Of a stretch of 45,260 bases of DNA, positions 1,833 through 44,346 are shown piece after piece; position 1 is the stretch's first letter, and each line of letters begins with the position of its first letter. This stretch comes from Bacillota bacterium. Lineage in GTDB: Bacteria > Bacillota > Clostridia > Acetivibrionales > DUMC01. Location of the stretch: positions 1-45,260 of the forward strand of contig JABUEW010000020.1 in the NCBI GenBank assembly GCA_013314855.1, in the 5' to 3' direction. A program made the position numbers and the translations under genes. The notes beneath the pieces were generated by a model. The model made no database searches. It saw only the letters and a list, made by a program, of their open reading frames with translations, and was not told where the DNA came from.

Positions 1833-4616
1833 ATGGAAATGAAAGTTAAATTAATTGGCAGTAAGAGCTTCAAAATGCATTATAAGGACGTAATTCTTGT
1901 TACGTCTATCCTTCTAGCTGCTATTTTCCTGATATCAGTAGCAATACACTCGTATTACAACACAGTAGGGTATATTAATAATAAACTGGATAGCATTAAT
2001 ATTAGTATAATAGAACAGACAGCAAACATAATTGAGAACAATTTAAGTCAAATAAGGAAAATAGCTGAATATATTGCAACCGATGAAATACTGATAAGTT
2101 ATATTGAACAGTATGAATCCGGCTCTCCCGGAAATAAACCACTATTACTGAGAAATATTGTCTCGAGAACAGGTATTATGAAGCAATTCAACAAGTATAT
2201 CTATAATATAGTTATTGTTACGAATAGCAGTATTATGGCACCAGGTGTGGATCTGGGAGTATATGACCTGAATTATGAAGCCATCAAACAGTCGGATTAT
2301 ATGGAGTACATAAAAAAGACTTTATGTGGTGAAGCTGCGTTCGTTCCTCCTTTTGAGAATAGCCTAACGGAGAATTTAAATTATAAGTTCGAATATATAC
2401 GGTATAAGTATAATTTTGCCAGTATAATTAAAAAAGATGAAAAAGAGTATGGTTGTGTTTTCATACTGTTAAAGCCTGAGATATTTAGGGAACTTTTGAG
2501 TCCTAATACTTTTTTGATAAACCAAAAAAAGGAAGTTGTTGCTGTTGGTGCGGGTTTAACTGATGAGCAAATAAATCCGGTAGTCCAAAATTGTATACTA
2601 AATACAGGTAATAAAACGATATGTAATGAAACAGACAGCTATAAAATGTACCTGAAGAATCTCGAGTCTGTAAAGATGAATATTGCATATATTCAGAGGA
2701 ATTCATATTTTATTAAAGATATTAAAGAGTATAGGTTCTACCTGCTTGTTACTTTAGTTCTTATCATTCTACTGGCGGTTATTATGTCGAGAATAATTTC
2801 TACAAAAATTATATCACCCTTACAGCAGCTTACAAACAGTGTTAAAAGTTATGTTTATGGAAGTAATGTAAAACTATATAAAAAGAACATTAAAGAAGCG
2901 AAACCCGGTTTATCCTTAAGGGAGAGTATACTGGTGTATCTAATTGGAGTAGTAATAGTACCCGTAAGTATCTATTTGGTTATTTCATATTATGTAAGTT
3001 ATAATATTATTGAATCATACATTATCAATTCATATTCCAATGTTTTTAACCAGGCAGTTGAGAATATTAATTATTTTATTGATACTAAAGAAAAGATTAT
3101 AAAAAATATCGCTTTCAATCTTACTGTGCAGAAATTACTGAGTGGGAAAACTTCTGAGGGAGATATATCTAAAATAGTTGACAGGGCGCTTAAACTGGGG
3201 AATGGAAGAGATGATGTATTTATTTACACAAGTACTAAAGATATTTTCTTTACAAATTCAAATGTCAACTCAAATACTACAGTTAAAAAGGAAATGCTGG
3301 AGGAAAGCCAGAATAAAAGAATAATTACAACGTGGGTTGATACTGTAAAAGATGAATACGGGAGAACGTTATTTAATCTGTTGATAAAGGTTAACAGCCT
3401 TGAAGAGTTTAATAATATAGGATTTATTCAATATCAGATTGGGGAATTTGAACTGGAAAATATATATAAGAACATAATAAAAGATAATACAAGCATTTTT
3501 ATAGTAAACAAAAATGGACAGATTATTTCACATCCGGCTAAGAATATGATCTTAACAAGCCTTGAAGAAGAGAATATTGCTTTTGAAACAGAGAATTACG
3601 GAAGAGACAGGAACAAGCTTATTTTTATGAAAGAAATCAGAAATACTCCATGGTATCTAGTAGGCCAATACTCCTTTGACTTGCTTAATATTGACAAGCG
3701 CACTTTAATATATGAAAAAATTTATATTTTTGCATTATTCTTACTTTTAACTATTATTATTGCATTCATATTCGCATTTGGCCTGACCAGGTCGCTTGAC
3801 AGGATAAATAAGCTGATTAAAAAAATGAGGATAGACAAATTCAATGTTGAATTTCCCCATAATACTATATTCAGCGAGATAAATGAATTAGGACAAGCTT
3901 TCAATGAAATGGTTGCTAGAAACGAGCAGCTTATTTACCAGCTTCTTAACTCAACTAAAAAACAGGCTGAACTGGAAAGCAAAAAAAAGAAATCGGAGCT
4001 TACTGCTTTACAGTTTCAGATAAATCCACATTTTCTTTATAATACTTTTGAAAGTATAAACTGGCTCATTAAACGCGACTGTAAAAAGGAAGCGATAAGT
4101 ATGGTAAAATCCTTAAGTCAGTTTCTAAGGCATGTTGCTAGGTCAGACGACCCTATAGTTTTAATATCTGAGGAAATACAACATGCAAAACATTACATAA
4201 ATATAATGAAAATAAGATATGGTGACCAGATAGATTTTATATGGGACATTGATGAAAAACTGATGTCCTCAAAGACCATAAGGCTGACACTGCAGCCGGT
4301 AATCGAAAATGCAATATATCATGGTATTCGTCCCAAGCAGAGTGAAGGGATTATAGAAATTAGCTGCAGAACGGATGAAAGTGGAGAGGTTATTATATTT
4401 TCGGTAACAGATAACGGTATTGGAATTCCGGAAAATATTCTTCAAAAGATTATTGAGGAAATAAACACTGATGAAGCCGGGGGGAGTATAGGGCTTCACA
4501 ATATTCAGAGCAGAATAAAGCTATATTTTGGTGAAGAGTATGGTATAAGCATTTTCAGTAAGGAAAGTGAGGGTACAACAGTAGAAATCAGGATCCCAAA
4601 CACACAAAAAAAATAA
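1833..4616 (+). CDS. YesM-type sensor histidine kinase with two sensor modules
   Basis: This membrane histidine kinase is the partner of the preceding regulator. The C-terminus is the LytS/YesM type: HAMP-like region at about 650-705, phosphorylated His at about residue 733 in INPHFLYNTF, N-box ENAIYHG near 826, G-box DNGIGIP near 860 and a final GSIGLHNIQSRI. What is odd is the front. YesM kinases usually have two membrane segments around one extracellular sensor, but this 927-residue protein shows four: about 20-40, 300-320, 364-388 and 630-651. They enclose two extracellular segments of about 260 and 240 residues, with a short cytosolic linker of about 45 residues that begins like a HAMP stem. 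Start: ATG 1833 is the longest; ATG 1839 has better spacing from CGGGAG. The ligand is probably a sugar or glycan fragment, by context only. Confidence 0.92.
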   Translation: MEMKVKLIGSKSFKMHYKDVILVTSILLAAIFLISVAIHSYYNTVGYINNKLDSINISIIEQTANIIENNLSQIRKIAEYIATDEILISYIEQYESGSPGNKPLLLRNIVSRTGIMKQFNKYIYNIVIVTNSSIMAPGVDLGVYDLNYEAIKQSDYMEYIKKTLCGEAAFVPPFENSLTENLNYKFEYIRYKYNFASIIKKDEKEYGCVFILLKPEIFRELLSPNTFLINQKKEVVAVGAGLTDEQINPVVQNCILNTGNKTICNETDSYKMYLKNLESVKMNIAYIQRNSYFIKDIKEYRFYLLVTLVLIILLAVIMSRIISTKIISPLQQLTNSVKSYVYGSNVKLYKKNIKEAKPGLSLRESILVYLIGVVIVPVSIYLVISYYVSYNIIESYIINSYSNVFNQAVENINYFIDTKEKIIKNIAFNLTVQKLLSGKTSEGDISKIVDRALKLGNGRDDVFIYTSTKDIFFTNSNVNSNTTVKKEMLEESQNKRIITTWVDTVKDEYGRTLFNLLIKVNSLEEFNNIGFIQYQIGEFELENIYKNIIKDNTSIFIVNKNGQIISHPAKNMILTSLEEENIAFETENYGRDRNKLIFMKEIRNTPWYLVGQYSFDLLNIDKRTLIYEKIYIFALFLLLTIIIAFIFAFGLTRSLDRINKLIKKMRIDKFNVEFPHNTIFSEINELGQAFNEMVARNEQLIYQLLNSTKKQAELESKKKKSELTALQFQINPHFLYNTFESINWLIKRDCKKEAISMVKSLSQFLRHVARSDDPIVLISEEIQHAKHYINIMKIRYGDQIDFIWDIDEKLMSSKTIRLTLQPVIENAIYHGIRPKQSEGIIEISCRTDESGEVIIFSVTDNGIGIPENILQKIIEEINTDEAGGSIGLHNIQSRIKLYFGEEYGISIFSKESEGTTVEIRIPNTQKK

Positions 4617-4651
4617 ACAATACAAAAAAAATTAAACATTTTTATCTTCTG

Positions 4652-4657
4652 TATAAT
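4652..4657 (+). promoter_or_regulatory. possible -10 box ahead of the sialidase-like gene
   Basis: A perfect TATAAT lies in the 150-base gap after the kinase gene. No good -35 hexamer is seen 16-18 bases upstream, so it may need the response regulator as activator, which would suit an AraC-type controlled operon, or it may be chance in AT-rich DNA. Confidence 0.3.
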
Positions 4658-4766
4658 GTTAAAATAAAACTAGAGTTGGCTATAAATCTATGATAGCAAT
4701 ATAAATCTGTGATCTCGAAAATGTTATTTAGATAGAAACAGTCTTTTGAAAAAGGAGGAATATCTT

Positions 4767-5891
4767 CTGGAGAATGTAAATTGTAGAATTTATTCGAGTA
4801 GAATTTATTCGAGTGGAGAATCTGATTATTTTGTAGGTAAAAGAGGAAGACTAAAAAGGTACTTGGTTTGTTCTATGCAAGGGTATTTTCCAGTGCTTGT
4901 AAAGACAGGTCCGCAATCTCTTGCTGTTATTTACAGGACAGGGGGGACGCATGTAAGTATATCTGCTACACTTGCTGTATCAACATCTAGTGATGGAGGG
5001 AAAAGCTGGTCTGACCCTGTTGAAATATACCCAAGATGGGAAGATGTGAGGAATCCTGCGTTTGGCGTTAATAGCAGAGGTGAACTTGTTGCTGCATTCT
5101 GGAAAGGCAAGCAGTGCTATGAAGTAGCTGATGGGGAAGCCAAAGGCTTTAGTATAAAGTATGCGAAAAAAGGGGATTTTACATTCACAACAATTAGTTC
5201 TGACGGTGGTAAGACATGGAGTAAACCAACACCATTAAACATTGAAAATCTCAGGCTAATTTCTCCTTACGGTAGAATTATAACAGCCCCTGATGGTACT
5301 CTTCTGATGAGCGTATATGGGGTTCCTGCAGGTGATGATGAAGCAAAAGATAATGTGGTATACCTTATAAGAAGCAGAGACGGTGGAAGGACTTGGGGGA
5401 ATGAATCCGTTGTTGCCCATGACTACAACGAAACCTCTTTTGCGTTTATGCCTGACGGGACTCTGATAGCTGCCGCCAGAAACTGGAGCAAGGGTCAGTT
5501 TGTTTCCATACTTTTTAGTAAGGATATGGGGTATACCTGGAGTGAACCAAAACAGGTGACGCGAAATTCAGAGCATCCTGCTGATTTGACGCTGCTTCAG
5601 AGCGGAAAGCTTCTTCTTACATTTGGAAGAAGGGTAAGGCCTATGGGATGTGGAGCCTTAATCAGTGAAGACGGGGGTAAGACCTGGAGGCATGACAAGG
5701 AAATTTTACTTGCAGGAGATGGTATAGAAAATGGTGACCTTGGATATCCTTCAACAGTACAACTTGATGACGGGACTATAGTTACTGTTTTATATTATGC
5801 GAGCGGTTCGGAAATGGCGAAAGGGACTTGTGGATGGGGAGATGTATCCTGCCAGGCCATACATTATAGAGAAGAAGATATTGCTTTTTAG
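4767..5891 (+). CDS. BNR/Asp-box sialidase-like glycoside hydrolase
   Basis: This is a six-bladed-propeller enzyme of the sialidase/neuraminidase superfamily, shown by five Asp boxes of the form S-x-D-x-G-x-T-W: SSDGGKSW, SSDGGKTW, SRDGGRTW, SKDMGYTW and SEDGGKTW, spaced about 50-70 residues apart. It has no signal peptide, so it should act in the cytosol on imported oligosaccharide. Family members cut sialic acids or other glycans; I could not verify the Arg triad, so the substrate is open. The start is uncertain: AGGAGG at 4753-4758 sits 8 bases before a CTG at 4767, while the TTG at 4746 lies upstream of that ribosome site and the only nearby ATG (4774) is out of frame. A perfect 15-bp duplication gives RIYSSRIYSS near the N-terminus. 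It lies upstream of the permease genes in the same direction. Confidence 0.85.
   Translation: MENVNCRIYSSRIYSSGESDYFVGKRGRLKRYLVCSMQGYFPVLVKTGPQSLAVIYRTGGTHVSISATLAVSTSSDGGKSWSDPVEIYPRWEDVRNPAFGVNSRGELVAAFWKGKQCYEVADGEAKGFSIKYAKKGDFTFTTISSDGGKTWSKPTPLNIENLRLISPYGRIITAPDGTLLMSVYGVPAGDDEAKDNVVYLIRSRDGGRTWGNESVVAHDYNETSFAFMPDGTLIAAARNWSKGQFVSILFSKDMGYTWSEPKQVTRNSEHPADLTLLQSGKLLLTFGRRVRPMGCGALISEDGGKTWRHDKEILLAGDGIENGDLGYPSTVQLDDGTIVTVLYYASGSEMAKGTCGWGDVSCQAIHYREEDIAF
4784..4814 (+). repeat. 15-bp tandem duplication inside the sialidase-like gene
   Basis: Bases 4784-4798 (TAGAATTTATTCGAG) are repeated exactly at 4799-4813. The length is a multiple of three, so the frame is kept and five residues (RIYSS) are doubled. 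The exactness suggests a recent slippage event. Confidence 0.95.
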
Positions 5892-5893
5892 CT

Positions 5894-5959
5894 CATATAA
5901 TGATCATATAATGATCATATAATGATCAGATAATGATCAGATAATGATCAGATAATGAT
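5894..5959 (+). repeat. six-unit 11-bp tandem array
   Basis: Six head-to-tail 11-bp units fill the gap between the sialidase-like gene and the first permease gene: three copies of CATATAATGAT, then three of CAGATAATGAT. The unit is close to one DNA helical turn, and each junction makes the palindrome TGATCA, so five equivalent sites lie on one face of the helix. Units also contain TATAAT-like strings. It could be a slippage product, a protein-binding array or a spacing element. Confidence 0.95.
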
Positions 5960-6023
5960 ATAATGCCGATTTGTTTATTGCTTTGCTCTTGAGTATAAAT
6001 GTTAAATGGGGGGAAGAAAACGA

Positions 6024-6980
6024 TTGCCGGAAACCACCAATATAAGCAACCTATATAGCAAAAGAAAATTTCAAAAGACCCTACTGCTTATGTATAAGCA
6101 TAGATATTATTATCTGCTCTTGCTTCCTGTTATTGCTTATTTTATTATATTTCATTATATCCCTATGTATGGGGTAACCCTTGCATTTAAAGATTTTAAT
6201 ATGAGGCTTGGGATTTTGAAGAGTCCATGGGCAGGTTTAAGTTATTTTCAAAGGTTGTTTGGAAGTAATAAGTTTTGGGAGGTATGTATAAATACACTCG
6301 TAATAAGTACTATGAAGCTTGCTTTTTGTTTTCCGGCACCGATAATACTGGCACTGCTTATAAACGAGATAAGAAATCCGAAGTTTAAAAAAATTGTTCA
6401 GACTGTATCATACATGCCGCATTTCATATCATGGGTAGTACTCGCAGGAATAATTATTGAACTGCTGTCTCCCAGCAGAGGTGCAGTAAATTATATTGTT
6501 ACATTTTTTGGTGGCAAACCTATATATTTTCTTACAGAACCCTCCATGTTCAGATGGATTGTTGTTATAACTGCCATGTGGCAGAGTGTCGGGTGGGGAA
6601 CAATAATTTATCTAGCGGCAATAGCAGGAATAGATATAACCCAATATGAGGCAGCTTATATTGATGGTGCCAACAGGTTCCAGATTATAAGAAGAATAGT
6701 GCTCCCGTCAATACTTCCTGTTATATCAATAGTATTTATCTTGAATCTGGGAGGAATTTTAAACGCTGGGTTTGACCAAATATTCAACCTTTATAACCCA
6801 ATGGTATACAAGACAGGTGATATAATTGATACCTATGTTTACAGGGTGGGGCTTGTAGATATGGAATACAGTTTTTCAACAGCAGTGAATCTTTTCAAAA
6901 ATGTTATTGGACTTATACTTGTTCTTTCTACTAATTTTGTGGTAAGAAGAATTGGTGATGGTGAAAATGCATTATGGTAG
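6024..6980 (+). CDS. ABC sugar transporter permease, LplB/CUT1 type
   Basis: Inner-membrane permease of a binding-protein-dependent sugar importer. The N-terminus, with LLLLPVIAYFIIFHYIPMYG followed by a six-helix membrane domain, is typical of the LplB branch of the CUT1 family. The EAA loop that docks on the ATPase is visible as YEAAYIDGANRFQIIRRIVLP. It pairs with the next permease, whose coding region it nearly touches. The likely start is TTG 6024, 7 bases after GGGGGGAAG; an ATG at 6006 would overlap that ribosome site. It lies downstream of the 11-bp repeat array. No ATPase gene is nearby, as is common for this family, which borrows a shared MsmX-type ATPase. Confidence 0.93.
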   Translation: MPETTNISNLYSKRKFQKTLLLMYKHRYYYLLLLPVIAYFIIFHYIPMYGVTLAFKDFNMRLGILKSPWAGLSYFQRLFGSNKFWEVCINTLVISTMKLAFCFPAPIILALLINEIRNPKFKKIVQTVSYMPHFISWVVLAGIIIELLSPSRGAVNYIVTFFGGKPIYFLTEPSMFRWIVVITAMWQSVGWGTIIYLAAIAGIDITQYEAAYIDGANRFQIIRRIVLPSILPVISIVFILNLGGILNAGFDQIFNLYNPMVYKTGDIIDTYVYRVGLVDMEYSFSTAVNLFKNVIGLILVLSTNFVVRRIGDGENALW

Positions 6981-6991
6981 GAGGTGCATGG

Positions 6992-7876
6992 GTGTACAGA
7001 CCTAAAAGAACTAGATGTGATATAATATTTGATGTATGTTTATACTTTTTAATGGTAATACTGCTTGTAATATTCCTGTATCCTATATGGGATACTATTG
7101 TCGTATCCTTGTCAAGTCCTAAATTTGTAAAAAAATTGGGGTTCCGTTTACTCCCTGATGATTTTACTTTAGCTTCCTATAAGGAAGTATTTAAAGACGA
7201 TATTATTGCTATAGGGTATATGAATACACTAATAAGAGTGATAATTGGTACTACTTTGACGGTTCTTATCACATACTGTGGAGGGTATGCTCTTACCAAA
7301 AAGAGTTTACCATTCAGAAGGACGATTTTGCTTTTCATACTGTTTACCATGTTTTTTAGCGGCGGTTTAATACCATCGTATCTACTGATGAAAAAGCTTG
7401 GATTAATTGGGTCCCGGTGGGCTTTGATTCTGCCAATGACTACATCAGCATGGAATCTGATTATTGCAAGGAATTTTATTAAGACAATTCCTGAATCACT
7501 TGAGGAATCGGCATTTATTGATGGTGCCCATCCGTTAATAGTAGTGTTCAGAATAATGATGCCGCTGTCAATGCCTATAATTGCAGTCCTGGCACTGTGG
7601 TCGGCAGTTGGACACTGGAATTCCTGGTTTGATGCGCTGATATATGTAAGGTCTAGAGATAAAATGGTACTTCAGCTTGTATTAAGGAAAATACTTATCG
7701 ACCAGGATGAAGAATTAATGAAAGGCGGGGCACTGGTTTTTATGCAGGATGATACATCTCCTGAAACTGTTAAAGCAGCTACTATTATAGTGTCTATAGC
7801 ACCAATTATATGTTTCTATCCATTCCTTCAGAAATATTTTGTCAAAGGTGTATTGATAGGTTCAGTAAAAGGTTGA
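6992..7876 (+). CDS. ABC sugar transporter permease, LplC/YtcP type
   Basis: Second permease of the CUT1 importer. Predicted helices begin with VCLYFLMVILLVIFLYPIWD. The EAA loop reads LEESAFIDGAHPLIVVFRIM, and the C-terminal KYFVKGVLIGSVKG is the usual ending of this branch. Start is uncertain: ATG 6974 overlaps the previous gene and precedes the ribosome site, while TAGGAGGTG at 6978-6986 is 5 bases from GTG 6992, which I prefer. The stop of the preceding gene lies inside this ribosome site, so translation is probably coupled. It works with the lipoprotein encoded after the following hairpin. Confidence 0.93.
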   Translation: MYRPKRTRCDIIFDVCLYFLMVILLVIFLYPIWDTIVVSLSSPKFVKKLGFRLLPDDFTLASYKEVFKDDIIAIGYMNTLIRVIIGTTLTVLITYCGGYALTKKSLPFRRTILLFILFTMFFSGGLIPSYLLMKKLGLIGSRWALILPMTTSAWNLIIARNFIKTIPESLEESAFIDGAHPLIVVFRIMMPLSMPIIAVLALWSAVGHWNSWFDALIYVRSRDKMVLQLVLRKILIDQDEELMKGGALVFMQDDTSPETVKAATIIVSIAPIICFYPFLQKYFVKGVLIGSVKG

Positions 7877-32170: not shown

Positions 32171-33604
32171 ATGGCAGTTGGATTTGGAAGTTATGAAATA
32201 GCAAAATCAGGTTTGTTTGTAAATGAACGGGCCCTTAATGTAACAGGCCATAACATATCAAACTTGAATACGCCGGGCTATGTAAGGCAACAGGCGATGA
32301 TTGCGAATGCACCGTACCAAACACTCCAAGGTAAAAGCGGCCTGTACCAGTTGGGCTTAGGGGCTGATGTACAGCAGATAAGACAAATAAGGAACCGCTT
32401 TCTTGACATCATGTACAGGAAGGAAAACATGTCTTTTGGTTACTGGGAGGCCAAGTATAAAACAATCCAGGACATAGAGGCCATATTGGGTGATCCTATG
32501 AAAGAAGGACTACAGAGTGTTATGAACCAGTTTTGGGATTCATGGCATGAACTGGCCAAAGAACCTGAGAGTTTAACAGTAAGGGCTATAGTAAGGCAGA
32601 GGGGAGAAACATTGATAAACACCGTCAACCATATAGGAGAACAGTTGGACAAGTTACAAAGGGATTTAACCTCGGAGATTAGTGTACGCGTTAATGAAAT
32701 AAATAATATAACTTCACAAATAGCTCAACTTAATGCTGTTATTTATAAGTACGAGGTATCAGGGGGTACCGCTAATGATTACAGAGACCAAAGAAATCTT
32801 CTTGCAGACAGGTTAACAAGGCTTGTAAATGCGGAAATAACTGAAACACCGGAAGGTTATTTCCTTGTGACAATTGGAGGTTATGCAGTAGTAAACAGAG
32901 AAAAGAGTACCAAGCTATATGTGGAAGAGGGTATGGGGAACGGAATAATGGGCCTGCCAAAGCCAATAATAAAGCTGGAAGGCTCAGAAATAACATCTCC
33001 CTTGAAGAGTGGAACTTTAAAAGGATTGATAGATTCAATAAGTGAAGTTGAAGAAACAAGAGAAATGCTGAACAACTTGATTAGTGCCATGGTTTCAGAA
33101 ATTAATAAACTGCATAGAAGCGGGAAGACCATGGGACAACCTCCGGAAGATGGGGATGACTTCTTTAAGCCGATTAAAAATGGATTACCTATGGTTCTGG
33201 GAAATATTAAGCTAAATGATAACCTAGCGGACTTGAACAATATTGTGGCATCAAATATGGAAAAATCAGGGGATAATACTATAGCATTAAAGATTTCAAA
33301 CTTAAGGAATGAGCCTTTAATTCCGGATGAGACGGGAATATTAAGCATTGATGAATATTATCAGAGTATAATTTCAAAAATCGGACAGAAGGGAGACCAG
33401 GCTGCAAGTATCGCTGAGAACCAATATAACCTGCTTATGGCAGCTGATGCCAAAAGGGAGGCTCTTTCAGGAGTTTCCTTAGACGAAGAAATGACGCATA
33501 TGATGAGGTTTAAATTTGCATATGACGCTTCTTCAAGGGCGTTTAATGCTATAGATGAAATGATGGAAACAATTATTAACCGTATGGGTTTAGTTGGAAG
33601 ATAA
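32171..33604 (+). CDS. flgK: hook-associated protein 1 FlgK (first copy)
   Basis: Junction protein between hook and filament, 477 residues. The N-terminus carries the rod/hook signature NERALNVTGHNISNLNTPGY, then a coiled coil (about 160-230) and a middle domain; the C-terminus GVSLDEEMTHMMRFKFAYDA with SSRAFNAIDEMMETIINRMG is the second coiled-coil half. It is followed by a second FlgK gene 30 bases later. This is the shorter of the two and nearer to ordinary FlgK. Confidence 0.94.
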   Translation: MAVGFGSYEIAKSGLFVNERALNVTGHNISNLNTPGYVRQQAMIANAPYQTLQGKSGLYQLGLGADVQQIRQIRNRFLDIMYRKENMSFGYWEAKYKTIQDIEAILGDPMKEGLQSVMNQFWDSWHELAKEPESLTVRAIVRQRGETLINTVNHIGEQLDKLQRDLTSEISVRVNEINNITSQIAQLNAVIYKYEVSGGTANDYRDQRNLLADRLTRLVNAEITETPEGYFLVTIGGYAVVNREKSTKLYVEEGMGNGIMGLPKPIIKLEGSEITSPLKSGTLKGLIDSISEVEETREMLNNLISAMVSEINKLHRSGKTMGQPPEDGDDFFKPIKNGLPMVLGNIKLNDNLADLNNIVASNMEKSGDNTIALKISNLRNEPLIPDETGILSIDEYYQSIISKIGQKGDQAASIAENQYNLLMAADAKREALSGVSLDEEMTHMMRFKFAYDASSRAFNAIDEMMETIINRMGLVGR

Positions 33605-33634: not shown

Positions 33635-35281
33635 ATGAGCGGATCCTTTTTCGGGTTTAATACTGCAGTAAGGGGGCTTTTTACCGCCCAAAAACATCTT
33701 GATATAATCAATCATAATATAAACAATGTGAATACTCCAGGGTATTCCAGGCAAAAAGCGACACAAGTTGCTGCTAGACCCTATCCTCTACCGGGAATTG
33801 CCGGTATGATAGGTACGGGTTCTGAAATTGTTTCAATAAACAGGATAAGGGATGAGTACTTAGATTACAAGTATTGGAGTGAAAACAAGGCTTATGGAGA
33901 ATGGTCAGCCAAAATGGAACTTCTTGCAGATATGGAAGTTACTTTTAATGAGCCCTCTGAAAGTGGTTTTACCACTATAATGAACGAGTTTTTCAATGCA
34001 CTTCAGGAACTGTTAAAAGACGCTTCATCTGCGCCAAATAGGACTTTGGTACAGCAGAAAGGAGTCACCCTGGCAAAATATTTCAACAGTATGGCTAACC
34101 ATTTTGAAAAACTTCAAGCTGATGTTAACCAGAGGATAAGGCTTAAGGTTGAAGAAATAAACTCGCTCGCAGTGCAGATTCAGCAGTTGAACAAGCAAAT
34201 CTATACAGCAGAGCTGGATGGAAGCGTAGCCAATGATTTAAGGGATAGAAGGACCCTTTTGGTTGATGAGTTGTCTAAAATAGTAAATATTGAGGCAAAT
34301 GAGGTAATCACAGGCAAAATGCCCAACGGAATGCCTGAAAAGCATTTTATTATTACTATAAACGGCAAATCTCTTGTAAATCACTTTAATGTGACTCAAT
34401 TGAAGCTAACCCGCAGAGATGATACCATGAAACTGAATGAGGAGGATATCCCGGATTTGTATGAAATAAGCTGGGAAGACGGAAACAAGTTTGAGGCAAA
34501 AGGCGGTGAATTGAAAGGGTACCTTGATATAAGAGACGGTAATGACGGAATGCTGGGAATTGACGGAAAAACTGCCAGCCCTAATTTTAAAGGAATTCCC
34601 TATTACATAAGGCAGATGAATACCTTTGTAAGGATATTTGCAATGGCTTTTAACGAGGGCTATATTGATAAAAACGGTGACGGTGTAATTGACCCTGGCG
34701 AAGATGGAATAGGACATGCAGACGGGTACGGTTTGGATCCTGATGGTGACGGAGCTCTTTCGGCTAAGACAGGTATCAGGTTTTTTACAATAATAGGCGA
34801 TGACGGAAAACCCCTTGATAGTGAAGCTTTTATTGATGGGGCAGGGGATATTTCCAGTATAATAGAAAGGTATAAGAATGTAACTGCCAAGAATTTTACT
34901 ATAAGCAGAGATGTATTGGAGGATTATAACAATATTGCCACTTCAGATGTTGAGGGTGAAGTTGGCAATATAAAGGTGCTTTATGAACTTATTAAAATGA
35001 GGCACAATACCAGTATGTTTGCAGAAGGGGCACCGGAAGATTTTATGAAGTCACTTATAGCAACCCTTGGCATAGATTCACAGCAGGCAGTAAGGCATTC
35101 CGAGAATAGGGAGAACATTATAAAACAGATAGAAAACAGGAGGCTTGCGTATTCAGGTGTATCACTGGATGAAGAAATGGCTGATATGGTAAGATACCAG
35201 CACGCATACAATGCAGCAGCAAGGATGATTGTAACAATGAGCGAAGTTTATGATACCTTAATAAACAAGCTTGGGGTGTAA
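33635..35281 (+). CDS. FlgK paralogue with EF-hand-type calcium loops
   Basis: A second FlgK-type protein, 548 residues, with HLDIINHNINNVNTPGYSR at the N-terminus and GVSLDEEMADMVRYQHAYNA at the C-terminus. The difference from its neighbour lies in the exposed middle domain: residues 345-356 read DKNGDGVIDPGE, a textbook 12-residue EF-hand loop (ligands at 1, 3, 5, 9, 12), and residues 368-379 read DPDGDGALSAKT, a second DxDxDG loop lacking the final Glu. Such loops are typical of secreted clostridial calcium modules (for example dockerins), but no dockerin helix pair is seen. It may be a specialised junction protein, or FlgK of this strain with the shorter copy taking another role. RBS GAAGGTG. 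Confidence 0.92.
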   Translation: MSGSFFGFNTAVRGLFTAQKHLDIINHNINNVNTPGYSRQKATQVAARPYPLPGIAGMIGTGSEIVSINRIRDEYLDYKYWSENKAYGEWSAKMELLADMEVTFNEPSESGFTTIMNEFFNALQELLKDASSAPNRTLVQQKGVTLAKYFNSMANHFEKLQADVNQRIRLKVEEINSLAVQIQQLNKQIYTAELDGSVANDLRDRRTLLVDELSKIVNIEANEVITGKMPNGMPEKHFIITINGKSLVNHFNVTQLKLTRRDDTMKLNEEDIPDLYEISWEDGNKFEAKGGELKGYLDIRDGNDGMLGIDGKTASPNFKGIPYYIRQMNTFVRIFAMAFNEGYIDKNGDGVIDPGEDGIGHADGYGLDPDGDGALSAKTGIRFFTIIGDDGKPLDSEAFIDGAGDISSIIERYKNVTAKNFTISRDVLEDYNNIATSDVEGEVGNIKVLYELIKMRHNTSMFAEGAPEDFMKSLIATLGIDSQQAVRHSENRENIIKQIENRRLAYSGVSLDEEMADMVRYQHAYNAAARMIVTMSEVYDTLINKLGV

Positions 35282-37919: not shown

Positions 37920-38732
37920 ATGAGAATTAACAACAACTTAATGGCAATGAACACCTACAGGCAGTTATCCATTACTAATAGTGCTAGTGCACGTTCAATG
38001 GAAAAATTAAGCTCAGGTTATAGGATTAACAGAGCAGGTGATGACGCAGCAGGCCTTACTATTTCAGAAAAAATGAGATCACAGATTAGAGGTTTAAATC
38101 AGGCTTCAAGAAATGCTCAAGATGGTATTTCCCTAATTCAGACAGCTGAGGGGGCATTAAATGAATCCCATGCTATTCTTCAGAGAATGAGAGAACTGGC
38201 AGTACAGTCTTCCACTGATACAAACACAAATGATGATAGAGCTGAACTTCAGAAGGAAGTTACTCAGTTAATTGCAGAACTGGATAGAATCGGAAACAAT
38301 ACGGAATTTAACACTCAAAAACTATTGGATGGAAGTTTCTCAACTAAACAGATCCATATAGGTGCAAATTCAGGACAAACGTTGACTATTAGTATTGGTA
38401 ACATGACAGCTAGTGGATTAAGTGTAAGTGGAGTGAATATTTCTACTCAAACTGGTGCAGATGCTGCTATAGAAACCATAGATAATGCCATTAAGTCACT
38501 TTCTTCTGAACGGTCCCAGTTGGGTGCATGGCAAAACCGTCTAGAACATACCATTAAAAACCTGGATAATGCGGCAGAAAATCTACAGGCAGCAGAATCC
38601 AGAATCAGGGATGTAGACATGGCAAAGGAAATGATGGAATTTACAAGACAGAATATTCTGCAGCAAGCAGCAACAGCAATGCTTGCCCAGGCAAATCAGG
38701 CTCCTCAGGGAGTGCTTCAGTTATTAAGATAG
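37920..38732 (+). CDS. hag: flagellin
   Basis: Filament subunit of 270 residues. The D0/D1 N-terminus ([36 protein letters not shown]) and C-terminus ([30 protein letters not shown]) are complete; the central variable part, about 140-190, is short and rich in Ser/Thr/Gly/Asn ([30 protein letters not shown]), which leaves several surface-exposed Ser/Thr for O-glycosylation. It has its own SigD promoter and CsrA control and a strong terminator. The next genes encode glycosyl- and phosphotransferase activities. Confidence 0.98.
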
Positions 38733-38750
38733 TATATGAAAAGATAGTAT

Positions 38751-38792
38751 TTTTAATAAAGGGAGTCAGTATACAGACTCCCTTTATTAAAA
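38751..38792 (+). terminator. long perfect terminator after flagellin
   Basis: A 17-bp perfect stem, TTTTAATAAAGGGAGTC with GACTCCCTTTATTAAAA around an 8-base loop. T and A runs on both flanks make it usable in either direction. It separates hag from the following glycosyltransferase gene. Confidence 0.9.
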
Positions 38793-38889
38793 TTGTGTGC
38801 AAATAAAATTTTAATAAATATAGATATTTTGGAAGTTTTATGTTTATACAGCTGCAATAAAATCAAAAAATAGAAAAGGATATCGGATT

Positions 38890-41800
38890 ATGAAACTTAG
38901 CATTGGTATGATGGTTAAAAACGAATCAAAGCATTTAGAAAAATGCCTTGAAAGTTTAAAGCCAATTATGAATAAAGTAAAGTCGGAACTGATTATTATA
39001 GATACTGGGTCAGAGGATAATACAGTAGAAATTGCAAAAAAATACACCGACAAAGTATATTATCATAAGTGGAATAATAATTTTTCGGAAATCAGGAATA
39101 TGACCGTAAAATATTCAAAAGGAGAATGGTTTTTTTTTATAGATGGGGATGAAATTCTGGAAAATCCAGGAGAAATGATTCATTTTTTAAATTCTAATAT
39201 ATGTAATAAATACAATTCTGCCTGCGTTTTATTAAAAAATATTATGCAAGATAAAGATGATGCTAGTTATGCTGTGACCATGATTTTACGATTGTTTAAA
39301 AAGGATAAAGATTTTCGATTTAAAGGGGCTGTCCATGAACAACCACAGTACAAAAATCCTATATATGCCTTAAATACTACATTGGTTCATTATGGATATA
39401 TATCGACGGACAAAGTTTTAATGGAGAGAAAATTCAGGAGAAATACAGAAATACTCAAAAGTGAGCTAAATAAAGAACCGGATAATATTTATATCTGGTA
39501 TCAGATATCCGCCAGCTATGGGATGTATAAAAATTATGAAAAAGCATTGGAATATGCGTTAAAGGCTTATGAAATCGCGAAAAAGAAAAACATGACCTTA
39601 CATAATAGGATGTATATATATACCCATTTAATGATGATGTATTATGCAAATGAAAAATATGATAAGGTAGAAGAAATATGCAGGGAAGCCTTATCTGTAA
39701 AAGACGGATATATAGACTTATACTTTTATATGGCAAGTGCGCAAAAGATGCTTATGAAAAATGAAGAAGCCATAAGAAGTTATTATAAATATTTGTCACT
39801 GTTAGATTTGTATAGAAAGAAACAACTTGATACAATAAAGGACAATGCTGTTGCCCATTATTCGTTAGATAAAGCAAATTATGCCTTTGGTGACTTATGT
39901 GTTTTATATGAAAGAACAGCTAATTACGAAAAAATACTAGAATATGCAAAAAAAATAGATGATATAAACGTTTTGAGTTCTGTTTTTTATCAAATTATTT
40001 CAGCTTACTTAAAGTTAAATTCCATTCATGATTTAAAAATTTATTATGATGAAAAAGTATCCAGGAGGGACGATAAAAGCATTATTCATAAATTTGAAGA
40101 AACATTAGAAAATTATATGAAGAATTTAGATTTGGAAGAGCAAATAAGAATAATAATGGAATTTTCTACTGGAAGTACAGCTTACAGCTTATTAAATAAA
40201 ATAAGGATTAATCTAAAAGAAGATATCTTCGAAATTAATGAAGATATGCTAAAAAATATTTCTGAAATTGATTACAATGAAATTCCGCCATTTTATGGAG
40301 ATATAATTTACTATTTAATTAAAGCAAAGATTCCATTGGAAAAAATAATTCAAAAAGTAAGTGAAAACAAGCTCATGCAGTTTTTAGGGCATTGTTATAA
40401 AAAACATGAAGGGTTTATAAAAACTATTGTAGAATATTTAGAAAATATTAAGGTTATCAGTAATAATTTAATTCAAGTAAGAATTAGTAAGGAGATAGAT
40501 AAATTCCTATTGTTATCAGAGGAATTAGATGAAGTCCAATACAAGCAAATATTTAGAAGATATTTAAATGATGGTATTTTTTATATCAGTAAACTTTATA
40601 ATAAAGAAATTATAGAAAAGGAAATGGTTTGTGATGTAAAAAACGAAGAGCATACATTTTTAATGTACATTTATCTGGCTAATAATATAAAAGTTCGGGA
40701 CAAAAGAAGTTATATTGGTTACTTAAGAAAAGCTCTCAATGCATATCCTTTTATGAAAAAGGGCATACAAATTTTGTTGGATGAATTACAGGAAAACGAG
40801 AATATTGAAAACGAAAGTTTACAACAATATCAAACAAAAGTAAAAGAACATATTATACATTACATTAATTGCGGAGAATTAAATAAAGCAAAAACTCTCA
40901 TTGATGAGTATGAAAGAATAATAAAAACAGATGCAGATATATATTCCATGAAAGCAGTTTTAGCCATGATGGAAAATAGATTAGAAGATGCTGAAAAAGC
41001 ATTAGAGGAAGGTCTTAAAATAAATCATCGAAACTGTGATTTATTGTATAATAAGGCTTATTTGTATAAACTTAGAGGACAAATTGAAAAAGCTGTAGAA
41101 ATTTATAATAAAATTTTAGAAACAACAGATGATGTTGAGCTCAAAAAAGAAATAGAAGAAGAATTGTCAAGCTTTTTATGTGAGAAGCATTCTCCCGACT
41201 CAAATTATATTGTGACTAAAATGGAGCAACAAGGAATTGTGGGTAAAGAATTGAGTGATAATTGGAATAGTAAAAATTCATCAATGAATAAAGATACGTT
41301 TAACGAAGAAAGTGTTTCTATTACTAATGTTGAAATGGAAGACTATAAAAGACAGTTCAAAAGTAATATCGAGTCATTAATAGAGCAAAATTTACTTCAA
41401 GAAGCTAAAGAACTGATAAAGGAATATGAGGATATTGTAAAAGATGATATAGATATTTACTCCATAAAAGGAGTTATAGCCATAATGGAAGGGGATATGG
41501 ATGAGGCGGAGGAGATATTAGGAGCCGGGTATAAAATAGACAATAATAATTCTGATATTCTTTATAATATGGCATGCCTTTACTTTAATAATGGCCAATT
41601 TGGGCTAGCTAATCACCTTTTTAAAAGATTATATAATCGAACGAATGATATAAATTTGAAAAAAGAAATAGAAAAGACGGTTGGAGTTTCTATCAAAAGC
41701 TGTAAAAACAAAGTGCTAATAGGAAGTCCTATATATCAAAAACCCCAAATTCTAAGAGAGTTTTTACGGTCATTAGAGGAATTGGAAAAAGATGTAATGA

Positions 41801-43584
41801 AAGTAGACTATTATTTTATTGATGACAACAAAATTGAAGAATCGAGTGATTTATTAAAGCATTTTGCTGAAAAATTAAAAAATGTTTTCATTTACAAAAC
41901 TCAAAATGAGGATGATTATAGATGTGATAATCATACACATCATTGGAAGGAAAACTTAGTATGGAAAGTAGCGAAATTTAAAGATATGATAATTAAGTAT
42001 GCCAAAAGGAATGATTATGATTATGTGTTTTTTGTAGATTCTGATATAGTATTACATCCAAATACATTAAAACATCTACTATCAACGGGTAAAGACATAA
42101 TTTCAGAAATATTTTGGACTAAATGGGAACCGAATTTGCCCGAGTTACCACAGGTATGGTTAATGGATGCTTATACTCAATATAATACTAGACGCGGCGA
42201 ACAACTAACCAAAAATGAAATAACAAATAGAAGGCAGGCATTTATTAATCAATTAAAAATACCTGGCATATATAAGGTAGGAGGATTAGGAGCATGTACA
42301 TTGATTAGCAAGTATGCAATCGAAAAAGGTGTTAATTTTAAAGAGATTGAAAACCTATCATTTTGGGGGGAAGATAGGCATTTCTGTATTCGAGCTAAAG
42401 CGTTAGGGCTCGATCTTTATGTTGACACACATTATCCTGCTTATCATATTTATAGAGAATCAGATTTGGCAGGAGTTAATGACTATAAAAAAAGAGCAAC
42501 ATCAAAGGTTATAACACTAGTAAATACTAATTATTCTGGTTCTAACAATATTGCAATGTATAAGCTTATACCGGAAAAGATAAAGGATAAATATTATGTT
42601 GAACTAGTTAATCAAGATAACAGCTACAGTTTTTTTTATAAAATTATTACAAGTAATGTAGTAATTACAACTGAAGGAAATTATCATTTTAATAAAGAAC
42701 TATTTAATAGAAAACAATTAGTGATAGATTTATGGCATGGATTTCCTATAAAATCTATGGGATATGTGGATAAAGGAGAAAAATTTAAAGATAATATTGA
42801 GAAAATATGGACTAATATAGATTATATAGCGTCTTACTCAAAGTTATTCAATGAGATTATGAATCAATGTATACAAGTAGAGAAAAATAAATATAAAATT
42901 CTGGGTGCACCAAGGAATGATTTTTTATTTGTAACTAATGGAAGAGAAAATTTATCGAATTTATTACAAATTGATTTAATTAATAAGAATATTGTTTTAT
43001 ATGTTCCTACATATAGGTATACCGCTAGAGGAAATAGGGAGGATGGAAATAGAAAGTGGAATAATTACTTTGGTTTTGAGTCTTTCGATAATAAAGGTTT
43101 TAGTCAGTTTTTGCAGATGAATAATATAGTTTTAATATTGAAACTACATCCGGCAGAAGAGCATATTGTAATTGATAGTTTAAAAGAGAGTAAAAATATA
43201 CGAATTATTACTAATAATATGCTTTTTGAGAAGCAACTGGATTTGTATGAAGTTTTAAATGGATGTGATGTTTTAATAACAGATTATTCCTCCATTTACT
43301 TTGATTTTTTATTATTAGATAGACCGATTATATTCACACCTGTAGATTTAATTGAGTATAGGAAAAATCGGGGGTTTTTATTGGAACCTTATGAGGATTG
43401 GACGCCTGGACCTAAATGCTTAAGGCAAGTTGAACTTGAGAAAGAAATAATAAATTGTTTAGCTAACACTAATTATTACCAGGATAAAAGGAAGATTGTT
43501 CTAGACAAGGTTCATGAATTTAAAGATGGATTTTCAACGAAAAGAACATGGGAATTTATTGATAATTGCCTGAGTAGCATGTAA
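38890..43584 (+). CDS. GT2 / TPR / GT-A / TagF-like multidomain transferase
   Basis: A 1564-residue cytosolic protein with no signal peptide. (1) Residues 1-230 are a GT2 transferase: [33 protein letters not shown] and the DxD as FFIDGDE near 81. (2) About 200-930 is TPR-rich, including two related ~110-residue blocks at about 650-760 and 818-930. (3) About 938-1220 is a second GT-A domain ([24 protein letters not shown] near 1047, [20 protein letters not shown] near 1160). (4) About 1225-1564 is a CDP-glycerol glycerophosphotransferase-like (TagB/TagF) domain with [13 protein letters not shown] near 1277, LKLHPAEEH near 1417 and [15 protein letters not shown] near 1462. GT2-TPR proteins next to hag usually glycosylate flagellin. 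The composite suggests transfer of sugars and of a phospho-polyol or similar group to flagellin. It lacks an obvious promoter of its own. Teichoic acid or capsule work is the alternative. Confidence 0.85.
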
Positions 43585-43623: not shown

Positions 43624-44346
43624 ATGAAAGCGGTAATTTTAGCGGCAGGAATAGGTTCAAGATTACGTCCTATAACTGATAATACACCAAAAACACTCGT
43701 AAAAGTAAATGGCAAGCCAATAATTAATTATATTCTTGATGCTATACAATCGGTTGGTATTTATGATGTAATTATATGTAATGGATATAAAGCAGCAAAA
43801 TTAGTGAATCATTGTAGAACATACTATCCTGATATTAATTTCATATTTGTAGAGAACAAGGAATATGATAGTACGAATAATATGTATTCTTTTTATCTTG
43901 CAAAAGATTACTTAGATGATGACATTATACTAATGAATGCAGATGTGGTTTTTGATAAAGATATTTTAAAGGGTATGATATTACAACACAATACAATGGT
44001 TGCGGTAGAAAGGGGTAGATATTTGGGAGAATCTATGAAAATAATTGTAGAACAAGGAATAATTAAAGGAATATCTAAAGAGTTTTCTGCAGAACAGTCT
44101 TACGGAACATCTATTGACATATATAAAATTATGAAGGATGATTTAGAATGTATCAAAAATGAAATGTATGAAATCATAGAAATAAAAAATGAAAAAACCC
44201 GTTGGACAGAAGTAATGTTGAACAATCTCTTCAATAATGGTGAATTAATAGCATTTCCATATGATATTTTTAATAAAAAATGGGTTGAAATTGATAATTA
44301 TATGGACTTGATGGAAGCAGAAAAATTATTTGGAGAAGAAATATGA
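43624..44346 (+). CDS. LicC-like nucleotidyltransferase
   Basis: A 240-residue GT-A-fold nucleotidyltransferase. The signature ILAAGIGSRLRPITDNTPKT is intact and KPII follows the catalytic lysine. The segment EYDSTNNMYSFYLAKDYL, with NADVVFD as metal site, resembles LicC (CTP:phosphocholine cytidylyltransferase) and related sugar-phosphate enzymes more than RmlA. It should activate a phospho-compound as its CDP- or NDP-derivative. It follows the big transferase by 39 bases, and that protein's C-terminal domain uses CDP-activated donors, so it plausibly supplies them. Which acceptor (choline, glycerol, ribitol, sugar phosphate, amino alcohol) is not visible. RBS GAGGTTTTAGAAATT-ATG, spaced about 11. 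Confidence 0.85.
   Translation: MKAVILAAGIGSRLRPITDNTPKTLVKVNGKPIINYILDAIQSVGIYDVIICNGYKAAKLVNHCRTYYPDINFIFVENKEYDSTNNMYSFYLAKDYLDDDIILMNADVVFDKDILKGMILQHNTMVAVERGRYLGESMKIIVEQGIIKGISKEFSAEQSYGTSIDIYKIMKDDLECIKNEMYEIIEIKNEKTRWTEVMLNNLFNNGELIAFPYDIFNKKWVEIDNYMDLMEAEKLFGEEI

Follow-up and report, generated by a model that had tools for sequence, protein, structure and literature searches.

The window, the entire 45,260-nucleotide stretch of Bacillota DNA that we analyzed, carries a flagellar locus with the gene order FlgM-FlgN-FlgK-FlgK-FlgL-DUF6470-FliW-CsrA-flagellin, followed by a gene encoding a 1564-aa transferase. The transferase ORF starts 157 bp past the flagellin stop codon, a gene for a LicC-like nucleotidyltransferase lies 39 bp 3' of the transferase gene, and the contig ends 914 bp past this last gene. 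The relevant features are as follows.

37920..38732, + strand: flagellin, 270 aa, presumed substrate (Flagellin_N, E 9.7e-49; Flagellin_C, E 4.6e-32).
38751..38792, + strand: strong RNA hairpin in the flagellin/transferase gap (MFE -24.7 kcal/mol for 38733-38815).
38890..43584, + strand: multidomain transferase, 1564 aa, uninterrupted ATG ORF (ORF call, translation, Pfam).
43624..44346, + strand: LicC-like nucleotidyltransferase, 240 aa, probably for CDP-donor synthesis (PF00483, E 1.2e-15).

The hairpin region 38733-38815 had a stability z of -6.0, and none of 200 shuffled sequences was equally stable. The hairpin is possibly a flagellin terminator or attenuator; it was not flagged in a terminator scan. 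FliD is encoded on a separate contig (C31). A continuation of the cluster beside FliD was rejected since no sugar genes were found among the recognizable ORFs next to it.

A preliminary description of this DNA had claimed that three transferase modules are joined on one 1564-residue chain behind flagellin. This was confirmed by the ORF, Pfam, phmmer, and a structural model, and the sequence motifs that it quoted are present in the translation. The chain is organized as follows.

38899..39579, + strand: GT2 domain, residues 4-230, predicted to place the first sugar on flagellin (PF00535, phmmer).
40810..41169, + strand: TPR module copy A, residues 641-760 (42% identity to copy B; 151 bits, profile search).
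41185..41334, + strand: linker, residues ~766-815, probable gene-fusion junction (alignment of Met816 with the G176 second gene).
41320..41667, + strand: TPR module copy B, residues 811-926 (157 bits, profile search).
41710..42495, + strand: second GT-A domain, COLGALT-like, residues 941-1202 (56-61% identity to stand-alone homologues).
42613..43560, + strand: PF04464 CDP-alcohol phosphotransferase domain, residues 1242-1557, with His1283 and His1420 (Pfam).

The GT2 domain was assigned by Pfam (Glycos_transf_2, PF00535, residues 4-90, E 1.3e-23). In a phmmer search with residues 1-237, the best solved relative was the Listeria flagellin O-GlcNAc transferase GmaR (22ao; E 6.2e-28 over residues 5-196). 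The S-glycosyltransferase SunS was nearly as close (E 2.9e-23), so the GmaR match does not prove GlcNAc or an O-linkage.

Pfam gave no call for the second GT-A domain (residues ~941-1202; PF13641, E 0.037, under the cut-off). It matched procollagen galactosyltransferase 1 by phmmer (E 2.3e-4 to 3.3e-4), and two of its homologues, L104 and L105, matched Pfam Anp1 (E 2.6e-7 and 1.4e-7). An AF2 model of modest confidence (5 sequences, mean pLDDT 58.1, pTM 0.62) had COLGALT1 (9evj) as its best Foldseek match in the PDB (E 3.6e-8, TM-score 0.52 by query length, 17% identity), and a DxD-like VDSD motif was invariant in five of five sequences. We tentatively assign this domain a GT-A fold of the collagen-galactosyltransferase type. 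A PHROGs search returned two GT-type matches, weak to moderate, and ORFs of phage-borne homologues of this domain matched poorly.

The preliminary description had placed the C-terminal third in the CDP-glycerol glycerophosphotransferase family, and it indeed matched Glyphos_transf (PF04464) with 207.2 bits against a cut-off of 22.1 (E 4.7e-61). The TagF-type histidines His1283 and His1420 were kept in all 13 aligned relatives and correspond to the TagF residues replaced by Asn in 3l7j and by Ala in 3l7m. A further 46 near-invariant columns, some possibly overlapping with the histidines, were also kept.

Numerous Pfam TPR models matched the chain, with the best stretches between residues 189 and 913. 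This region contains two copies of one ~115-aa module that are 42% identical; these copies and the LicC-like gene at 43624-44346 had been missed in the preliminary description. A profile of the module matched 21 of 398 genomes. Counting flagellar genes within the fetched stretch, the module was in a flagellar locus in 19 of these 21 genomes, and in 16 of the 18 genomes that had not contributed to the profile. Its carriers include glycosyltransferases, methyltransferases, an ATP-grasp enzyme, and phosphotransferases. Against the PDB, the best 60 of 121 matches (E <= 0.001) were generic TPR matches only, eukaryotic O-GlcNAc transferase among them. From this distribution, we read the module as a putative docking tag. 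The TPR part of FlmG binds flagellin by two-hybrid (PMC7591256), and Maf-1 is cited as another flagellin GT with a flagellin-binding TPR part (PMC13317340). That the module is instead a mutual scaffold between enzymes, or a regulatory part, seems rather unlikely to us. Its presence on several enzymes of one locus would suit a scaffold, and the C-terminal part of GmaR is described as an antirepressor (PMC9638930). However, direct flagellin binding by the FlmG TPR part (PMC7591256) argues against the scaffold, and the occurrence of the module on methyltransferases and an ATP-grasp enzyme argues against regulation.

The same parts were found in a two-gene version in the flagellar loci of four relatives, followed by tagD in three of them. 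In G496 the order is flagellin, GT2, [module-GT-A-PF04464], and tagD; in G176 it is FlgL-FliW-flagellin, GT2, [module-GT4-PF04464], tagD, and FlaG-FliD-FliS; in G125 it is flagellin, GT2, and [module-GT4-PF04464]; and in G281, where the upstream gene is cut by the contig start, it is [module-GT-A-PF04464], tagD, and FlaG-FliD-FliS. The TagD proteins of G176 and G496 exceeded the TIGR01518 cut-off. From Met816 onward, the 1564-aa protein aligned with the N-terminal end (MEIYKKQFKDNIKILIEK) of the product of the stand-alone second gene of G176, and copy B shared 54-56% identity with the module that the stand-alone second gene carries in G496, G077, and G281. As judged from these alignments, the chain looks like a fusion product of two neighboring genes, which remain separate in relatives. 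No other genome examined had the complete four-part chain; that of G077 is cut by the contig start. The same-genus genome G001 (89% complete) had no match to the protein and a same-family genome had only GT2-type matches, indicating that the system is patchy. A plasmid search matched 196 records, none spanning 80% of the protein, and a genome contig scan found four loci, each matching the second GT-A domain only.

Neighborhoods were fetched for 19 of the 54 matching genomes, plus the G018 region, and stretch counts omit L113 (a repeat of L044) and L110 (which shares a contig with L002). Flagellin or FliD/FliS was present in six of seven stretches with a PF04464-type domain and a TPR module on one chain, the seventh being the 3.7-kb contig of G077; such homologues are therefore not confined to teichoic acid loci. 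Ten of 12 PF04464-type stretches lacking the module had no flagellar gene. Just two of 16 distinct stretches with the second GT-A domain and no TPR module were flagellar loci, so this domain alone is not flagellin-specific.

Nine genomes have PF04464 in a flagellar locus: the window's, G281, G125, G176, G332, G496, G438, G391, and G604 (the last by Pfam). Six have tagD, one (G332) has an IspD/TarI-type gene, and the window alone has a LicC-like gene; none of these was seen in G125, where the contig ends. The LicC-like product matched CTP:phosphocholine cytidylyltransferase (1jyk, E 6.2e-20) and probably makes the CDP donor, judging by this similarity. In the window's own genome (96.6% complete), the 1564-aa protein was the only PF04464 match and TagD (TIGR01518, E <= 0.001) had no match. 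TagD-made CDP-glycerol is therefore unlikely as the donor, and was rejected unless tagD lies in an assembly gap; another route is possible.

The nearest relatives of the nucleotidyltransferase (40-43%; one in G648 and two in G363) are in polymer-type loci, not flagellar ones. Among eight non-self loci (E <= 1e-30), a G1P-dehydrogenase-like Fe-ADH gene adjoins six (G648, G363 twice, and G455, G382, and G420 of one genus). An HAD-IIA gene adjoins two of these six and a PF04464-type gene three. The loci in G520 and G464 had no Fe-ADH, HAD-IIA, or PF04464-type neighbor. The S. pneumoniae gtp1-3 pathway is a CDP-glycerol route, and contig C7 of the window's genome has adjacent Fe-ADH and HAD-IIA genes in an apparent glycerol catabolic locus. 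We keep a gtp1/gtp2/gtp3-like CDP-glycerol route as a lead only, and the nature of the donor for the PF04464 domain is a guess.

Overall, domains and loci support a flagellin-modifying glycosyltransferase plus a phospho-transfer step. The domains, the kept catalytic histidines, the gene order, the duplication of the module, and its association with flagellar loci are all plain in the sequences; from them we infer the acceptor, the order of steps, the second sugar, the docking partner, and the donor. We consider it likely that the protein works in the cytoplasm and modifies flagellin in three transfer steps carried out on one chain. The GmaR-like GT2 domain would place a first sugar on flagellin Ser/Thr, the COLGALT-like GT-A domain would add a second, and the PF04464 domain would move a phospho-alcohol onto the glycan from a CDP donor supplied by the product of the next gene, giving a phosphodiester cap. 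The two TPR modules would keep the chain, itself presumably born from fusion of two adjacent genes, on flagellin or partner enzymes so that the steps run in succession. Analogy to C. difficile suggests a phospho-amino-acid cap, and tagD in relatives would rather point to a glycerophosphate-type cap. Provided that the remainder of this reading holds, the cap has a little under an even chance of being glycerol phosphate or something closely related; another CDP-alcohol product is conceivable, and a phospho-amino acid is unlikely. We further propose, tentatively, that many Bacillota have a modular flagellin assembly line of GTs, methyltransferases, ATP-grasp enzymes, and CDP-alcohol phosphotransferases with a shared ~115-aa TPR docking module that would recruit them to flagellin. 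One branch would end in a teichoic-acid-like glycerophosphate cap, and the window's line would be fused into the one 1564-residue chain, with two modules and two sugar-transfer sites.

A C. difficile type A-like system proper, with phosphate-linked threonine or a similar amino acid as the cap and CDP-threonine made by a CD0242-like enzyme, is improbable. C. difficile 630 and P. aeruginosa PAO1 likewise have a GT, a nucleotidyltransferase, and a PF04464-like phosphotransferase encoded behind flagellin (PMC10714395, PMC11833859). However, the window has no CD0241-like (phosphotransfer to threonine) or CD0243-like (methyltransferase) neighbor in the 914 bp left before the contig end, and tagD, which relatives use, does not fit a threonine route. 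We think it very improbable that the phosphotransferase part serves a teichoic-acid-like wall or surface polymer and lies near flagellin incidentally. PF04464 takes its name from teichoic acid enzymes, and the module-less PF04464 stretches and the nucleotidyltransferase relatives described above fit that role, but here the domain is fused to a GmaR-like flagellin GT, six of the seven stretches with its module-bearing counterparts are flagellar, and the genome lacks a TagD match or a second PF04464 match. A role in wall teichoic acid was largely rejected on the latter grounds. Least probable is partial inactivity of the fused domains, with the GT2 step alone yielding a plain sugar, as in Listeria, where GmaR adds GlcNAc only (PMC9638930), given the conservation of the PF04464 histidines and near-invariant columns and of the VDSD motif.

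Two general questions are still open: how cytoplasmic flagellin GTs recognize flagellin that is folded or bound to a chaperone, and how a glycan can be assembled on it in several steps with no lipid carrier. A tag marking enzymes of differing chemistry in flagellin loci would be a direct handle on them and predicts new members. Flagellin phospho-capping has been worked out in detail for two species; tagD-type (glycerophosphate) caps would widen its range to several lineages of Bacillota, with a bearing on motility, phage receptors, and flagellin recognition.

Several known systems resemble parts of the proposed enzyme. Listeria GmaR, the closest solved GT2 relative, also has a GT2 domain followed by TPRs; unlike the window's protein, it is described with an antirepressor part and has no second GT or phosphotransferase (PMC9638930). 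Caulobacter FlmG and Maf-1 likewise join a GT to a TPR part, which in them confers flagellin recognition (PMC7591256, PMC13317340), but as described they are other GT types with a single activity and no phosphotransferase. TagF, TarL, and Cps3D share the PF04464 family and both TagF-type histidines; they build teichoic acid or capsule polymers, whereas the window's PF04464 is one domain of a flagellin-locus protein. As in the window's relatives, tagD occurs in the flagellin glycosylation island of Geobacillus thermoglucosidans DSM 2542; the authors read tagD and a Pgs gene there as a possible lipid modification, and the passage on tagD mentions no PF04464 protein (PMC5109656). The parallel to C. 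difficile type A drawn in the preliminary description is borne out by published accounts: CD0240-CD0244 include a GT, a nucleotidyltransferase, and the PF04464-annotated CD0244 behind fliC, likened here by description, and CD0244 is required for the cap (PMC10714395, PMC11833859). Unlike the window, that system is described with separate proteins (CD0240/CD0244), a single sugar (GlcNAc), and CDP-threonine as the proposed donor. P. aeruginosa FgtA (PA1091) has a similar layout: this flagellin-modifying protein, encoded next to flagellin, joins a GT2 to a CD0244-like phosphotransferase, and a nucleotidyltransferase gene (PA1090) lies nearby (PMC10714395, PMC11833859). By its published description, FgtA has no second GT between these domains and no repeated TPR module, and the modification is a deoxyhexose capped with N,N-dimethylthreonine phosphate, unlike the cap proposed here. 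Likened by description to PA1088-PA1091, the window shows no visible methyltransferase or PA1089-like gene up to the contig end. Fusion of a GT with phospho-transfer at flagellin, which domains and loci support, is thus less novel than first suggested, being already known from FgtA, with separate proteins in C. difficile; new to us are the extra GT, the doubled module, the shared putative docking tag, and the predicted glycerophosphate-type cap.

The window is one entire contig of 45,260 bases, taken from a 4.43-Mb draft assembly in 252 contigs (completeness, 96.6%), and its transferase ORF encodes 1564 residues with no interruption. Genomes searched are designated by G-numbers (the window's own genome is G000), and stretches fetched from genomes, plasmids, or viral contigs by L-numbers. 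The surroundings of the transferase ORF are as follows:

Upstream, in order: FlgM, FlgN, and two FlgK-type proteins (Pfam)
Next: flagellin-like protein (Pfam), whose best BLAST matches are FlgL relatives
Then: DUF6470, FliW, and CsrA (Pfam)
37920-38732: flagellin (Pfam)
38751-38792: strong RNA hairpin in the flagellin-transferase intergenic region (-24.7 kcal/mol, z -6.0)
38890-43584, forward strand: transferase ORF
43624-44346: nucleotidyltransferase gene (PF00483), 39 bp after the transferase ORF

Flagellin and the transferase ORF lie 157 bp apart, and the hairpin between them is perhaps a terminator or attenuator, holding the transferase level under that of flagellin, although a terminator scan made no call there. 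Behind the nucleotidyltransferase gene comes one further ORF of 132 aa, which matched no Pfam model, and then the contig ends. The FlgK-type genes stand in tandem (32171-33604 and 33635-35281); L037 of G004 has a pair of consecutive ORFs (3393-5450 and 5457-7112) that are FlgK-type by eye.

The preliminary description saw a GT2-TPR-GT-A-phosphotransferase fusion behind flagellin, and the ORF together with Pfam, phmmer, and Foldseek data bears this out:

Residues 4-90: GT2 domain (Pfam, E 1.3e-23)
Residues ~941-1202: second GT-A domain (Anp1 matches of homologs, phmmer, and Foldseek of an AF2 model)
Residues 1242-1557: PF04464 phosphotransferase domain (Pfam, E 4.7e-61)

The GT2 domain matched GmaR over residues 5-196 (E 6.2e-28), with SunS second (E 2.9e-23), and the TPR repeats fall in two zones. 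Pfam did not call the second GT-A domain in the window protein; its homologs matched Anp1 in Pfam, the domain itself matched procollagen galactosyltransferase 1 in phmmer (E ~3e-4), and COLGALT1 was the top Foldseek match of a modest AF2 model. The PF04464 match places the C-terminal third inside the CDP-glycerol glycerophosphotransferase family, as anticipated. His1283 and His1420 of this domain are kept in 13/13 aligned relatives; in the TagF alignment, both correspond to His in 3l7i, while the first is Asn in 3l7j and the second Ala in 3l7m, two entries that we take to be active-site mutants. We consider it reasonably probable that the window protein is a three-step flagellin-modifying enzyme, in which GT2 would add a sugar, GT-A a second sugar, and PF04464 a phospho-alcohol cap.

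Searches with the C-terminal part matched 10 of 291 genomes of the class at E ≤ 1e-25 (own included), and at the order level two of 58 genomes (own included). A query of the second GT plus phosphotransferase matched 54 of 398 phylum genomes at E ≤ 1e-30, where nearly all of the best rows matched the GT-A part alone. GT-A and PF04464 share a single chain in four genomes, namely the window's own, G496 (56%), G077 (61%), and G281 (54%); in G125 and G176 a GT4-type domain replaces GT-A. The gene order in G496, G176, and G125 is flagellin, a GT2/TPR gene, and a TPR/GT/phosphotransferase gene, with the full set from FlgL through FliS visible in G176; in G281 the contig start cuts the gene upstream of the phosphotransferase gene. 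TagD comes next after the phosphotransferase gene in G496, G176, and G281. From Met816, preceded by a Ser/Asn-rich linker, the window protein resembles the N-terminus of the G176 second gene (MEIYKKQFKDNIKILIEK). Judged by these sequences, the window protein appears to be the relatives' two genes joined in one frame. The complete four-part chain was not seen elsewhere in the class, order, phylum, and same-genus/family searches, the G077 chain being open at the contig start. Distribution of the system is patchy, since nothing matched in G001, from the same genus, and the matches in G002, from the same family, were of GT2 type only. Beside flagellin, G004 encodes a GT2-TPR-GT2-TPR fusion of 1496 aa, and G009 (L038:10013-15214) a GT2-TPR-GT4-two methyltransferases fusion of 1734 aa, which is another assembly-line fusion.

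The TPR zones contain two copies of a ~115-aa putative docking module, A (residues 641-760) and B (residues 807-926), with 42% identity. Copy B is nearer to the modules that G496, G077, and G281 encode in their separate second gene (54-56%) than it is to copy A, indicating that each copy stayed with its own enzyme. By BLAST at E ≤ 1e-8 among 904 locus proteins, the module was confined to proteins from 12 genomes, and in 11 of them flagellar genes lay within the stretch or elsewhere on its contig (the same 35-kb contig in G012; the G077 contig is 3.7 kb long). Those loci had been found with the window protein, and a search of 398 phylum genomes was therefore made with a 15-row module profile, A2. 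It matched 21 genomes at E ≤ 1e-15. Up to 20 kb was examined around each of the 18 matches in genomes outside the profile sources, and flagellin, FliD, FliS, or FliW lay near the module in 16 (exceptions, G606 and G560), or in 19/21 once the profile sources G000, G496, and G438 are counted in; the 18 genomes are partly non-independent, several sharing a genus (17 genera among the 21). By rough estimate, flagellar clusters occupy no more than a few per cent of genomes like these, and the association is thus far beyond chance. Module-bearing proteins carry GT2, GT4, SAM methyltransferase, FkbM methyltransferase, ATP-grasp, or PF04464 domains, and two, both from G357, had no Pfam match. In a flagellar locus of G390 (L174:9626-11866), the module is fused to a sugar-transfer-associated ATP-grasp domain, a hint of amide-type chemistry on flagellin.

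Flagellar association follows the module rather than the catalytic domain. Where a single chain combines a PF04464-type domain with the module, flagellar genes accompany six of seven stretches, so that homologs are not confined to teichoic acid loci, whereas they accompany 2/12 distinct stretches with a PF04464-type protein lacking the module (G332 and G391) and 2/16 with the second GT domain lacking it (G531 and G412), none of these 16 stretches containing the module. The last two (L104:5585-9082 and L105:5826-9314) encode ~1165-aa chains beside flagellin, in which GT2 and TPR come after the second-GT domain. Several other second-GT stretches adjoin collagen-like or spore-type genes by eye; annotation for such neighbors exists only on Priestia megaterium plasmid pBM500 (L045, collagen-like protein), where they fit the collagen-galactosyltransferase resemblance and suggest a spore-surface role of the GT-A domain. 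Nine viral contig pieces (L183-L191) encode distant GT-A relatives (24-42% identity).

A wall teichoic acid role of the window protein was largely rejected, as in the 96.6%-complete draft of its own genome PF04464 matched just once and TagD (TIGR01518) not at all at E ≤ 0.001.

The probable donor enzyme of the window is unlike that of the tagD branch. Among nine genomes with PF04464 in a flagellar locus, six have tagD (G281, G176, G496, G438, G391, and G604), for which a glycerophosphate-type cap would be the simplest reading; G332 has instead an IspD/TarI-type gene (150 bits against ribitol-5-phosphate cytidylyltransferase NF001183, under the 166-bit cut-off), no donor-synthesis gene was seen in the G125 locus, and only the window has a LicC-like gene. 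The closest solved relative of its product is CTP:phosphocholine cytidylyltransferase LicC (1jyk, E 6.2e-20), and no NCBIfam model scored above cut-off. Its nearest relatives (40-43%) lie in polymer-type loci with G1P-dehydrogenase-like and PF04464 genes, neighbors that hint at a glycerol-derived donor. Cassettes of a PF04464 protein, a G1P-dehydrogenase-like Fe-ADH, and a LicC-like nucleotidyltransferase occur in G363 (L117 and L132, with an added HAD-IIA protein) and G648 (L103), and are possibly a TagD-less CDP-glycerol route.

FliC of C. difficile 630 carries GlcNAc capped by phospho-N-methylthreonine, with CD0242 the proposed maker of CDP-threonine and CD0244 the proposed transferase, and in P. 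aeruginosa PAO1 a GT and a phosphotransferase share a single protein, PA1091/FgtA (PMC10714395, PMC11833859, PMC4441256). The TPR part binds flagellin in FlmG (PMC7591256) and Maf-1 (cited in PMC13317340) and is proposed to do so in GmaR (PMC9638930); GT2-TPR proteins of C. sporogenes are predicted flagellin GTs (PMC13317340), and a tagD sits in a flagellin glycosylation island (PMC5109656). Among the papers listed by our searches of a literature set that leaves out most subscription journals, none dealt with glycerophosphate-capped flagellin or with a TPR module common to flagellin-modifying enzymes. The earlier reading of a phospho-linked flagellin glycan largely holds, but its core idea has a precedent in FgtA, a GT-phosphotransferase fusion already known at flagellin. 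Four features go beyond FgtA: a second GT inserted into the chain, the apparent merger of two genes into one, a branch of the tagD type, and, most notably, the putative docking module, which marks flagellin-locus enzymes of differing chemistry.
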